DNA of 64,000 bases from the NCBI GenBank assembly GCA_947575805.1, contig CANPOY010000009.1, forward strand, positions 1-64,000, written 5' to 3'. The position numbers and the translations under genes are program-made. A model generated the notes under the pieces. That model worked only from the letters and a program-made list of their open reading frames with translations, searched no databases and was not told the origin of the DNA. Origin of the DNA: an uncultured Lachnospiraceae bacterium. Its GTDB lineage: Bacteria > Bacillota > Clostridia > Lachnospirales > Lachnospiraceae. Within the stretch, counting starts at the first letter, position 1. Each line of letters begins with the position of its first letter. Positions 49,712 through 54,494 of this stretch are shown here, piece by piece.

Positions 49712-49888
49712 TTCCTTTTCCTCCATAAAAATCTTATTTGCTCTGTACAGACCGCCTGACACCAGGCCCCGGTCGGAGTATCCACAGGCTGGGCATCGGC
49801 TAAACTATACCGTTAAATAATATCACACCTGCGGACAAAAGTAAACAAGTAATTTGCGTTCTTCTGCTTCCCTGCTTATAAAGCAGGA

Positions 49889-49917
49889 TTGACAGCTTCC
49901 GCAAAGACACTTATAGT
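49889..49917 (+). promoter_or_regulatory. Near-consensus sigma-A promoter for the HEPN-like gene
   Basis: TTGACA - 17 bp - TATAGT, 20 nt upstream of the ATG; RBS-like GGGGGGA. Confidence 0.8.
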
Positions 49918-49936
49918 AATTTGGGGGGAATGTGAA

Positions 49937-51667
49937 ATGAGTCTTTTAGTTAAATTTGTTGCAGTCGGTAACGGCGAAACCACCATATATCATACCAAAT
50001 ATATACATAAAATATTTAAGGAGCTACAGCAATGCGGATTGATCAACAGGTTAATGGTGCCTCCTGATGAATTCGAGCGGAAAGGCAGCCCCATAGACAC
50101 AAAGGATGAAGAAGGAAATATTTTTCTGCTTGAATTCAGCAGCCTGGAAAACGGTAAATTCAACAACTGGAATATCGAATTTCGGTTTGGGACATATCAT
50201 GCAGCAAAGCAGCTGGAAACAGCAATTCATTCGGATACCTATGCAGTTGACAAAGATAACTATTATCTGGAAAAGCTGAAGCTGGCAATTAAAAAGTCAA
50301 TTGTCAAAGACTGGGAAAAAATAATCTGGCTGATTGACAGGGACTCCGAATGCCTGTCCGTTGATTTATATCCGAGCATCTACAAAACAGAAAATCTCAT
50401 GCGGGAGCTGATCAACGAAGTCATGACAAAGCAGTACGGCACATCCTGGTGGGATTCCTTTGTATCTGCAAATATCAAGGAAAAACACAGCAAAAGGCTT
50501 GCCGAATATAAGTCAAAGGTTCCTGCATTCAATAATGTGGATGAGAAATTAATGTCAATTGATATTGATGACCTGGGTGATCTGGTTACCTTAAAAAGGT
50601 ATCAATGGATGCCGATTTTCGATGAAAAAATCAGTTATCTGCTAAACGGAGTGCAAAAATATGACGACGGTATGATACATGAACTGCTGTTAAAACAGAG
50701 AACCATAGAAGCAGATCTTTGGCAGGAGCAGTTTTCCAGATATTTGCCGGACGATTTCCCCAAACGATTTTCTTTGTTTGCAAAAGACAGAAACCATATC
50801 ATGCACAACAAGCTAATTGACCGAACCGCATTCCAGAAGATAAAGGATTCGGCAGAAACAATAGAAAAAGACCTTTTGCTCGCGATCGGCAAATTCAATA
50901 AAACTATCCTGTCAAACGAAGAAAAGGAAAAAATCGAAAAACAGCGGCAAATAGAAGCGAATATGCAGAAAATGCAGGATCACGAGCGCAGGGAAAGTGA
51001 AGCCGGCGTCTCTATCAGATCTTATGACGAAATTGAAGACTTATTGGCGGACAGTATCATTAAATTTCTAAGAGGCATTGAGGAAAACTATCGCTTTAGA
51101 AGTGATATAGAGCTCTCGGATTTATACTGTATCGACTGGAGCGATGCCGGGAAGTTGTTTTCCATACGTTCAAAAATTGACGATACAGAGCTGAATTTCA
51201 CCTATGTGTCGTCCATAAATGAAGCAGAAGGCGCTGACAGCTCATTGGAGATCTACTATGATATTATTCCCGAAAAATATGTTACGGTTCTGGAATATAA
51301 AAATGCTTCTGTTGAGATTGATCCTGACACCGGTTTATATGTACCGGTCGTACAGGACCGGCTTGGCAATATAACGGCAGTCGTAGACGCTGTAGTGGAC
51401 TTTATTGACGACAGGATAACAAACTATAAGGAAAATGCCTCCCCGGAAGACATTACCGAGTATGCCTCCTGCTGCGAATGCGGAGAATATTCTGTCTGCG
51501 TAAATGAAGACCTATTGCCGGCTGGGACATGTCTGAGCTGCGGATATGTCAATCACCTTCAAAGCTGTGAAAGGTGTGGAGAATTGTTTAACGCCGAGAC
51601 TGAGGGCTTGTATGAATACGATGTGGCACTCTGTCAGAATTGCCTGGACGCGATCGAGGCAGAGTAG
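49937..51667 (+). CDS. Large uncharacterised protein with HEPN-like motif and C-terminal Cys-rich zinc-ribbon region
   Basis: 576 aa from MSLLVKF; RNHIMH (Rx4H) at 50789-50806; LMRELINEVMTKQYGTSWW; C-terminal CCECGEYSVC...CLSCG...CERCG...CQNC. Confidence 0.8.
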   Translation: MSLLVKFVAVGNGETTIYHTKYIHKIFKELQQCGLINRLMVPPDEFERKGSPIDTKDEEGNIFLLEFSSLENGKFNNWNIEFRFGTYHAAKQLETAIHSDTYAVDKDNYYLEKLKLAIKKSIVKDWEKIIWLIDRDSECLSVDLYPSIYKTENLMRELINEVMTKQYGTSWWDSFVSANIKEKHSKRLAEYKSKVPAFNNVDEKLMSIDIDDLGDLVTLKRYQWMPIFDEKISYLLNGVQKYDDGMIHELLLKQRTIEADLWQEQFSRYLPDDFPKRFSLFAKDRNHIMHNKLIDRTAFQKIKDSAETIEKDLLLAIGKFNKTILSNEEKEKIEKQRQIEANMQKMQDHERRESEAGVSIRSYDEIEDLLADSIIKFLRGIEENYRFRSDIELSDLYCIDWSDAGKLFSIRSKIDDTELNFTYVSSINEAEGADSSLEIYYDIIPEKYVTVLEYKNASVEIDPDTGLYVPVVQDRLGNITAVVDAVVDFIDDRITNYKENASPEDITEYASCCECGEYSVCVNEDLLPAGTCLSCGYVNHLQSCERCGELFNAETEGLYEYDVALCQNCLDAIEAE

Positions 51668-51842
51668 GGGAAGAGGCGCTTGGCAGGACAATGGAAACTG
51701 CCAGATTCTTTCCCCTAAACCAGTCCCTGCAAATAACGCCCAAGACCCTGCATTTTTCAATCAAAAACCATGCTATTCCGCTGGTTCCACCTGTTGTCAC
51801 ATTGCGGAAAATTCCCTTTGCGCTTCCAATACATGCAGCGGC

Positions 51843-52907
51843 TCACAGTTCCCCCACCCCTGCCTGCAAAGCCGCACTATCCAGATTTTCCTCCATCCAG
51901 AGAAGCATCCGGTCCAGAACCTCTGCATAACTTTCCACCGTAAGCCTGTGACTTCCGTCCTGGAAACAGCGGGTCATGTAATCGTTCATCTCACGGCCGT
52001 AATGGGTGTAATCGCTGTAATTATCAAGATCCGTGATAAAATCATACATATTTTGGAAATAAAATACAGATACATTATGATAGGATAGCAGTCTCTCCAT
52101 AATATACCTCTCCCCGGCCAGCTCCGCTTCCAGGCCTCCCTCGACCGACTGGGTATACCAGTACAGAATGCTGTAAGGCGGAAAAAATACGGTAAAGTGC
52201 GTGTCCGGCATAGACTCGATATAAGGGATAATATACGCATTCAAATTGGCTTCTATATTGCCGATATAGGCATCCGCCGGCAGCGGTGTCTCAGACTCCC
52301 GGGGAAGGGCATAGGAGGACAGCACGTTTTGTCTGCCACAGAATACCTGCCCCCATGTGGAATAGATCTCGTTCAGAGGTGTGCCGGGCTGACGCCTGAA
52401 AACATGGGAAATATAATCCAGAAACACATCCTTATTCAGCAGATAGGGCAGATCGTTCCACGGAGACGTATCGTAAAGATATTCAGGAATCTCATAGGCC
52501 GTGATGCCGGGCTCCGCCTTGTAGGTAGGAATATCAATCCCCAGGAAAATTTCCTTCGGCCATGTCTTTCTTTCCTTTACAATCGTCATGATATTGTCAA
52601 TGTCCCTGGGATACGCGCCGTTATAAGAAAGCTTAATCGTGTTAAGCCCCATGGTCTGCGCAAAAAGCTCCGTATCAAAATTAATCGTCATGGACGATCC
52701 CAAAATTACGCTGTCATACTCAAACCTTCTGGCAATTCCCGGATTCTGGCTCAGCTGATTGTCTATGACATAACCGACTCCCGGCAGCGGCCCATGGTAC
52801 TGGAAAAAGGGATCGATTACCACCACTGTCAGCATACATACCAGCAGTAGGCTCACCGACAAAGCCAGAAAAATCAGGATATGCTTCTTATATTTCCCGT
52901 TATCCAT
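51843..52907 (-). CDS. SGNH/AlgX-DltD-like membrane-anchored protein
   Basis: N-terminal TM; VILGSSMTINFD and YSDYTHYGREMNDYM; adjacent to an MBOAT gene. Confidence 0.75.
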   Translation of the reverse strand: MDNGKYKKHILIFLALSVSLLLVCMLTVVVIDPFFQYHGPLPGVGYVIDNQLSQNPGIARRFEYDSVILGSSMTINFDTELFAQTMGLNTIKLSYNGAYPRDIDNIMTIVKERKTWPKEIFLGIDIPTYKAEPGITAYEIPEYLYDTSPWNDLPYLLNKDVFLDYISHVFRRQPGTPLNEIYSTWGQVFCGRQNVLSSYALPRESETPLPADAYIGNIEANLNAYIIPYIESMPDTHFTVFFPPYSILYWYTQSVEGGLEAELAGERYIMERLLSYHNVSVFYFQNMYDFITDLDNYSDYTHYGREMNDYMTRCFQDGSHRLTVESYAEVLDRMLLWMEENLDSAALQAGVGEL

Positions 52908-52924
52908 AATTATCCTCCTTCCCG

Positions 52925-54391
52925 TCAGAAATTAAAGTACAGAAATGTACTCACACCCGACAGCGAGACAATGCTCCACACGGCGACCAGCGCCAGGAAC
53001 ACCGTGCCGAAAATCGCAGGCCGGTGGCTTTCTTCGCCCTCATACAGATTTTTACAGCCAAACAGCAAAACACAGGCAATCAGGACAAAGGCCGCCAGAC
53101 CGTAATAGGCCGCACCGGGCAGCGTGTGCAGATGCAGCGCTTTCAGCACATAATATACTTCCGGGATCTGAAAGAAGGTGGCAAACTCCATGTTGATCCG
53201 CCCTCCTGTCACAGTTGCCAGCCGGCGCAGCATAAAAAGAGCCTGTTCCAGAGTGTCCGCCCTGAAAAAAGTCCAGGAACAGCAGATGAAAAGGAAGGTA
53301 AGGCTTGTGGAAAGCGCCTTTCCGAAAAGGCTCTTTTCCCCTGTGCCTCTTATCTTCTGCCAAATCCGGGTTATCACGGAAAGGACACCATGCAGAAGCC
53401 CCCATACAATATAGTTCCAGCCCGCCCCATGCCAGAAGCCGCTGACCAAAAAGACCAGCAGTACGTTGACACAGGTGCGGAGCATTCCCTTGCGGCTGCC
53501 TCCCAGAGGAATGTACAGATAACGTGTAAAGAACCGGGTCAGGGTGATGTGCCATCTGTCCCAGAATTCCAGAATATTCCCCGCTTTATACGGAGAAAGG
53601 AAATTGACGGGAATCCGGATATTAAACAAAAATCCGATCCCCCTTGCCATATCGCAGTAGCCGCTGAAATCAAAATAAATCTGAAAGGTATAAAAGAGGA
53701 TGACCACAAAGGTGTTGAGCCCGTCCAGCAGCGTATAGTATTGGAAGCCCCAGTTCACGGCCTGCCCGAACACATCGGCCAGCAGGATCTTCTTGCCAAG
53801 CCCCAGCACAAAGAGCCGCAGTCCCTTATACACATTTTCGGCCTGGATTCGCTTTGCAGACAGATCCCTGAACTGAGGAAGCATTTCCTCATGGCTGACG
53901 ATAGGGCCCGCGATCAACTGTGGAAAAAAGGTCACAAAAAGTGCATAATCCGAAATTTTCTGTCTGCGGACGGTACCTCCCGCGCTGTCTGCCAGAAAGG
54001 CAATCTGCTGAAAGGTAAAGAAACTGATCCCCAAAGGCAGCAGGATGCCCGGCAGCGAAAACTGTGTACGAAACAGCAGATTAACATTCTCAATCAGAAA
54101 ATCAAAATATTTATAATAAAGCAGCAGTGCCAGGTTCAACAGGATCCCACAGCTCAAGACACCCCTGACATGCCGCCCCTTTACAAGCAGACAATGAAAA
54201 AAATAATTTACCGCAATACTAAGCAGAATAACCCAAAGATAACTGAGCCGGAAATACGCGTAAAACCACAGGGACATACCGACCAGAAAATATTTGGCCG
54301 CCTGATACTTCCTGATCCGGTTAAGCAGAAAATATCCAGAAAACGCTACAGGCAGAAATAAAAATATGAATATATACGAATTAAACAGCAT
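52925..54391 (-). CDS. MBOAT-family O-acyltransferase (AlgI-like)
   Basis: GISFFTFQQIAFLAD; FFPQLIAGPIVSHEEMLPQF; YFDFSGYCDMARG; FWDRWHITLTRFF; GFWHGAGWNYIVWGLLHG. Confidence 0.94.
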   Translation of the reverse strand: MLFNSYIFIFLFLPVAFSGYFLLNRIRKYQAAKYFLVGMSLWFYAYFRLSYLWVILLSIAVNYFFHCLLVKGRHVRGVLSCGILLNLALLLYYKYFDFLIENVNLLFRTQFSLPGILLPLGISFFTFQQIAFLADSAGGTVRRQKISDYALFVTFFPQLIAGPIVSHEEMLPQFRDLSAKRIQAENVYKGLRLFVLGLGKKILLADVFGQAVNWGFQYYTLLDGLNTFVVILFYTFQIYFDFSGYCDMARGIGFLFNIRIPVNFLSPYKAGNILEFWDRWHITLTRFFTRYLYIPLGGSRKGMLRTCVNVLLVFLVSGFWHGAGWNYIVWGLLHGVLSVITRIWQKIRGTGEKSLFGKALSTSLTFLFICCSWTFFRADTLEQALFMLRRLATVTGGRINMEFATFFQIPEVYYVLKALHLHTLPGAAYYGLAAFVLIACVLLFGCKNLYEGEESHRPAIFGTVFLALVAVWSIVSLSGVSTFLYFNF

Positions 54392-54494
54392 CCTGTTTTT
54401 CCTCTTACTATGTACTCTTCTTTGATAACCGGTTTTACAGAAAGCCGAACGCCCGTATAGTAATGACGTCCGGTTTCTGTATCTCCTTCACCTT

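Follow-up and report, generated by a model that had tools for sequence, protein, structure and literature searches.

A lone accessory gene in the window (the whole stretch of 64,000 nucleotides that was analysed) encodes a protein in which a Swt1-like HEPN core with invariant catalytic motifs is joined to a cysteine-rich, predicted double zinc-ribbon tail. Related genes are accessory too. Gram-positive-type bacteria carry them sporadically, on plasmids, on conjugative elements and in defence islands. We consider it probable that the product is a self-contained Swt1-like HEPN endoribonuclease, carried as mobile cargo and most likely used as a one-protein abortive-infection defence. This is probably a variant within a known superfamily and not a new principle. 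Swt1-like HEPN domains and zinc-ribbon fusions were catalogued in 2013, which makes the protein one of a known kind. The variant itself is regarded as new because none of the libraries searched spans the full-length family from end to end, and no paper or experimental data on any member were found in the openly accessible literature.

Conservation of the HEPN motifs

HEPN proteins have an all-alpha fold of four or five helices and act as endoribonucleases in the form of dimers. Their sequence hallmarks are an Rx4-6H motif, in which N, D or H usually follows the arginine, and a second conserved acidic residue in Ex3[KR] (Anantharaman et al., 2013, PMC3710099). The bare Rx4H motif is weak evidence because one third of the shuffled versions of this protein contain one (33%, against 5.6% for R[NDH]xxxH). 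Therefore, conservation had to decide. In an alignment of 15 full-length homologues (21-64% identical, mean 31%), residues R285, N286, H287, H290, N291, K292 and D295 are all invariant. In other words, 7 of the 28 invariant columns cluster within the 11-residue stretch RNHxxHNKxxD (P = 9e-8). Poor conservation of RNHIMH had been named in the initial annotation as grounds for giving up the HEPN idea, and the constancy of R285 and H290 in 15 of 15 homologues removes that concern. The residue after R285 is N286, as in active HEPN families (PMC3710099). The second hallmark, which the initial annotation had missed, is present as Ex3R (E152-N-L-M-R156), with E152 and R156 again found in every one of the 15.

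Family assignment

What kind of HEPN protein is this? A Swt1-like region had been suggested, and at the level of sequence the suggestion holds. Taken as a whole the protein scores 29.7 bits against PF18731 (HEPN_Swt1), for which the gathering cut-off is 27.5, although the match is borderline and the best single stretch alone reached 22.4 bits in the genome search. PF18731 is matched by all 15 homologues (E <= 1). Profile comparison with a shorter Swt1-like HEPN group gave a probability of 98.7% (E 3e-16) over 212 columns, covering residues 103-328 with both motifs in register. The proteins of that shorter group match PF18731 in their own right, and one exceeds the cut-off. PF18731, Rx4H and Ex3R are what the protein has in common with the Swt1-like HEPN family of the Abi2/Swt1 clade (Anantharaman et al., 2013, PMC3710099). 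A HEPN-zinc-ribbon fusion, Npun_R5629, is a listed architecture in the same work (PMC3710099), and the likeness to it rests on that listing. The HEPN domain of eukaryotic Swt1 is described as inactive and is fused to PIN.

The shorter Swt1-like family (350-467 aa; loci L027, L028, L029, L030, L012, L013 and L109) is scattered through the same order. Its members do not have the zinc ribbons, several have an MxYIFIEK-type N-terminus, and the family also matches the PADLOC candidate-defence model PDC-M34B. That model is matched by all 15 homologues of the window protein over part of its length; for the window protein itself (3.6e-10) the match covers about 86 of 192 profile positions, less than half. 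PDC-M34 is a multi-gene candidate class, whereas the gene here has no conserved partner over 17 loci. For the window protein there was no match in NCBIfam and none below E 0.1 in PHROGs. The long N- and C-terminal regions are conserved, and Pfam, NCBIfam, PHROGs and PADLOC contain no model that covers them.

A PDB sequence search with the family profile returned chance-level matches only (E 0.48 or worse). AlphaFold models from a two-sequence alignment (the window protein and its Veillonella homologue, L007) are mainly helical but unreliable, with a mean pLDDT of 40.4 for the whole protein and 41.6 for residues 100-330.

The gene and its immediate setting

The features of the locus are collected in Table 1. 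The initial annotation described a lone plus-strand gene, more AT-rich than its neighbours, whose product contains LMRELINEVMTKQYGTSWW, RNHIMH and a Cys-rich tail. This description is accurate. The gene is the only one on the plus strand between rpsO and an SGNH/MBOAT pair, both on the minus strand. Its GC content is 41.5% versus 50.6% for the window, the lowest among the real genes there (one ORF lies lower and is an antisense shadow). LMRELINEVMTKQYGTSWW, RNHIMH (R285, H290) and the Cys-rich tail were each located in the protein. A G-rich ribosome-binding stretch lies ahead of the ATG, and the promoter-like site would give a leader of only about 13 nt. A TTG start at 49889 was rejected: it falls within the promoter-like site, and homologues begin at the ATG.

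Table 1. Features of the HEPN gene and its locus (window coordinates)
Feature	Position	Strand	Remarks
Block of HEPN gene, SGNH and MBOAT	49865..54493		Absent from two nearest relatives
Promoter-like site TTGACA-17-TATAGT	49889..49917	+	11/12 matches; consensus match only
Swt1-like HEPN / double zinc-ribbon protein gene	49937..51667	+	576 aa; ATG at 49937, stop ends 51667
N-terminal region, residues 1-99	49937..50233	+	F7 and Y22 invariant, F82 nearly so (alignment of 15)
HEPN core, residues about 100-325	50234..50911	+	Pfam PF18731; aligns by profile with other Swt1-like HEPN proteins
Ex3R motif ENLMR, residues 152-156	50390..50404	+	E152, N153, R156 invariant in 15/15
Predicted catalytic Rx4H RNHIMH, residues 285-290, within RNHxxHNKxxD	50789..50806	+	R285, N286, H287, H290 invariant in 15/15
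Linker and C-terminal region preceding ribbons, residues 326-505	50912..51451	+	I366, S435, N456, P470 invariant
Predicted double zinc ribbon, CxxC pairs C512/515, 532/535, 544/547, 566/569	51470..51643	+	Eight Cys in 13/15 homologues

A gene without a partner

An all-against-all comparison of neighbours revealed no partner gene shared across 17 loci. What the loci do share are recombinases, generic regulators and genes common to pairs of loci, mostly plasmid backbones. Nor is there a conserved upstream or downstream element, as the flanks of the three closest copies align no better than background. Rfam gave no match in the window flanks and eight loci, the abiF motif RNA (RF03085) included. 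With no shared partner, no aligned flanks and no Rfam match, the HEPN gene can be taken as a unit by itself. This agrees with the earlier remark that no partner gene is visible.

What if the protein serves the element that carries it? In this scenario, it would be a stress toxin or one that stabilises a plasmid or element. A labile host factor, or an antitoxin that has escaped notice, would hold the HEPN RNase in check, and the gene would be an addiction module instead of a phage sensor. Frequent carriage on plasmids and ICEs is what such a toxin would show, and many HEPN toxins are parts of toxin-antitoxin systems (PMC3710099). However, the window copy has no companion on its strand. An antitoxin gene in cis is argued against by the lack of a conserved adjacent gene (17 loci) and of conserved flanks (three closest copies), and the adjacent antitoxin gene of HEPN-MNT type systems is likewise missing from the shared neighbourhood. 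An addiction toxin is therefore unlikely.

The restraint might instead come from RNA. C. difficile AbiF-RCd22 is an example of a HEPN toxin neutralised in this way, and the protein here could be an AbiF/AbiD-like toxin silenced by a cognate small RNA encoded alongside. The idea draws on the placement of Abi2 and Swt1 HEPN domains in one clade (PMC3710099) and on weak matches of PD-T4-5, an AbiF/D relative, to 2 of the 15 members. AbiD, AbiF and PD-T4-5 (Abi_2) form a sister HEPN group that is plasmid or phage borne, is abortive and has the Ex3R-Rx4H order in common with the window protein. Their motif context is RNxCAHxxRLY, whereas here it is RNHxxHNKxxD. Actual membership of Abi_2 (PF07751) was rejected, since none of the 15 matches PF07751 at E <= 1 and the profile match is 0.9%. 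Against RNA silencing there are also the empty Rfam search, abiF RNA included, the unconserved flanks and the shortness of the leader, and we consider it highly improbable.

Distribution and mobility

Universal presence in close relatives, as a housekeeping gene, was a further outcome that the initial annotation had set against its own proposal. The distribution is of a different sort: sporadic, mobile and with an empty site in the nearest relatives. In the genome to which the window belongs, a protein search detected a single copy. Among near genomes, the protein search found relatives in 6 of 196, only three of which (own genome included) have a full-length protein at 55% identity or more. 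Homologues are present in 8 of 392 genomes at the level of the order and 7 of 392 at that of the class. A profile search of a phylum-wide sample picked up 11 of 399 genomes, two of which, the own genome among them, have a full-length protein. There is a homologue in one Veillonella genome, and there are homologues on 44 plasmids, mostly from Bacillus and Enterococcus, 11 of which were typed as conjugative.

One conjugative-type element carries a HEPN homologue, and its sequence in genomes of two families agrees to 99.994% over 18,000 bp. This is a very recent transfer, unless one of the assemblies is contaminated. The shared element corresponds to L023 399-18398 (genome G774) and L125 1-18000 (genome G1207). 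The latter genome also has a second, diverged HEPN copy (L126 7471-11298), which follows what we take to be a three-Cys-motif partner protein and radical-SAM-type genes.

At the window locus, mobility is visible as an empty site. Two genomes are closest to this one in the region (pnp 96.6% and 97.7% identical); in both, rpsO abuts DUF1540-thrS and the 4.6-kb block is absent. No clear target-site duplication is visible at the block. The SGNH/MBOAT pair (51843-54391) is part of the same insertion. The pair was ruled out as a partner for the HEPN gene on two grounds. Of 121 genus genomes, 120 contain MBOAT relatives, whereas the HEPN gene is seldom found; and the closest relatives of the HEPN gene within the genus are located elsewhere, where the pair is absent. 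The pair looks like a shuffled surface-modification cassette, because in two genomes (G053 and G073) the MBOAT orthologues most similar to its own (74-75%) occupy different loci.

Neighbours of the window copy and of other copies

The window copy has no defence neighbour and is flanked by housekeeping and surface-polysaccharide genes. Judging from ORF sequences, one of the genus copies elsewhere (L019) lies in a sugar-nucleotide/polysaccharide cluster and another (L020) in unrelated surroundings.

Several other, independent copies do have defence genes nearby, a tally that is a raw count on a small sample with no background rate to set it against. The Veillonella copy (L007) is near a type I R-M specificity subunit (Methylase_S) and a HEPN/Toprim-NTD protein. 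At L022 a Lamassu-like pair, PDC-M46A/B (L022 1343-3798), is located 33 bp upstream of the HEPN gene. McrBC and a Schlafen-AlbA protein are found at L025, and AbiJ-NTD3, a KAP NTPase (PDC-S20) and serine recombinases at L021. On plasmid p237, an annotated dsDNA-nuclease gene (with a neighbour at L092 1021-3708) and a TIR protein are near the HEPN copy. The Lamassu-like pair of L022 and the dsDNA-nuclease gene of p237 with its neighbour might represent repeated associations.

Perhaps the protein has nothing to do with phages. Eukaryotic Swt1 and Las1 are models for a cellular role in RNA processing, and a protein that processes or binds RNA could have spread as cargo that is neutral or of use in a niche. 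Zinc ribbons are frequent among proteins that bind RNA or DNA, and the window and L019 copies both adjoin surface-polysaccharide genes. However, such a very sporadic and mobile distribution is hard to square with a cellular role. The defence neighbourhoods recur and the catalytic motif is intact in all homologues, which makes this explanation improbable. If the protein is instead a defence, as we favour, then a defence-type gene can stand alone among housekeeping genes, outside the reach of guilt-by-association surveys.

Related defence systems and a proposed mechanism

The nearest proven functional analogue is the Tha-1/Tha-2 pair of S. aureus prophages, in which a one-protein HEPN RNase with the motif RNSIMH is triggered by a phage tail protein and causes abortive infection by non-specific RNA degradation (PMC11087260). 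Unlike the protein here, Tha-1 and Tha-2 are 301-310 aa long, have HEPN at the C-terminus and are without zinc ribbons. Kinship was rejected at a profile probability of 0.15%, and Tha has no PF18731 match. We propose that the protein works like a Tha but is not one, as there is no detectable sequence kinship. DS-11 is a CBS-HEPN one-protein defence whose catalytic mutants lose defence and whose CBS domain binds an adenine nucleotide (PMC13092281). The likeness is that a single protein joins a sensor domain to a HEPN nuclease, as is proposed here. The difference is that the sensor is CBS in DS-11 versus zinc ribbons and uncharacterised regions in the window protein. The HEPN_Apea and N-terminal domains of a further system, ApeA, are absent from the Pfam and PADLOC matches.

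HEPN enzymes in general dimerise with their paired catalytic residues in one cleft. Two copies of the window protein would do so via the HEPN core, and R285 and H290 of each would meet there. The enzyme would be autoinhibited, remaining quiet until another part of the protein senses an infection cue. Most plausibly this part would be the C-terminal region with the double zinc ribbon, or else the N-terminal region. Once triggered, the enzyme would cut cellular and phage RNA, and growth would stop before phage release.

To our knowledge, there are only a few one-gene HEPN defences whose triggers have been identified, Tha being one of them. If the protein belongs with them, its small size, frequent transfer and integral zinc module would make it convenient for studying how HEPN RNases are held inactive and then set off. 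In addition, a name could then be given to a set of proteins from Bacillus and Enterococcus plasmids that now count as 'hypothetical'.

The zinc-ribbon tail as candidate sensor

The Cys-rich tail had been read as zinc ribbons in the initial annotation. As the usual state of the family this stands, with all eight cysteines of the four CxxC pairs kept in 13 of 15 homologues, but the tail is dispensable: the whole module is lost in the other two. Therefore, it cannot be essential in all members. The two exceptions (L036 7010-8587 and L004 1171-2820) retain the HEPN core while all four CxxC pairs are gone. Pfam DZR matches three members weakly (best E 0.021).

The C-terminal ribbon region is our first guess for the sensor because it is conserved as a unit. 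One possibility, put forward tentatively, is that this region recognises a phage molecule by direct contact and thereby activates the attached HEPN RNase, without the help of an antitoxin, an RNA or a second messenger. The protein would then represent a single-gene defence family that has not been described and that plasmids and conjugative elements have carried through Bacillota.

Streptococcal phages of the phi-m46.1 group encode a relative of residues 374-576 that is not joined to a HEPN part. In phage phi-m46.1 (L037 7052-7654) and ten similar Streptococcus phages it is 200 residues long, zinc ribbons included, and sits on a tet(O)-carrying element. It is either a leftover or a case in which the putative sensor module is put to use independently.
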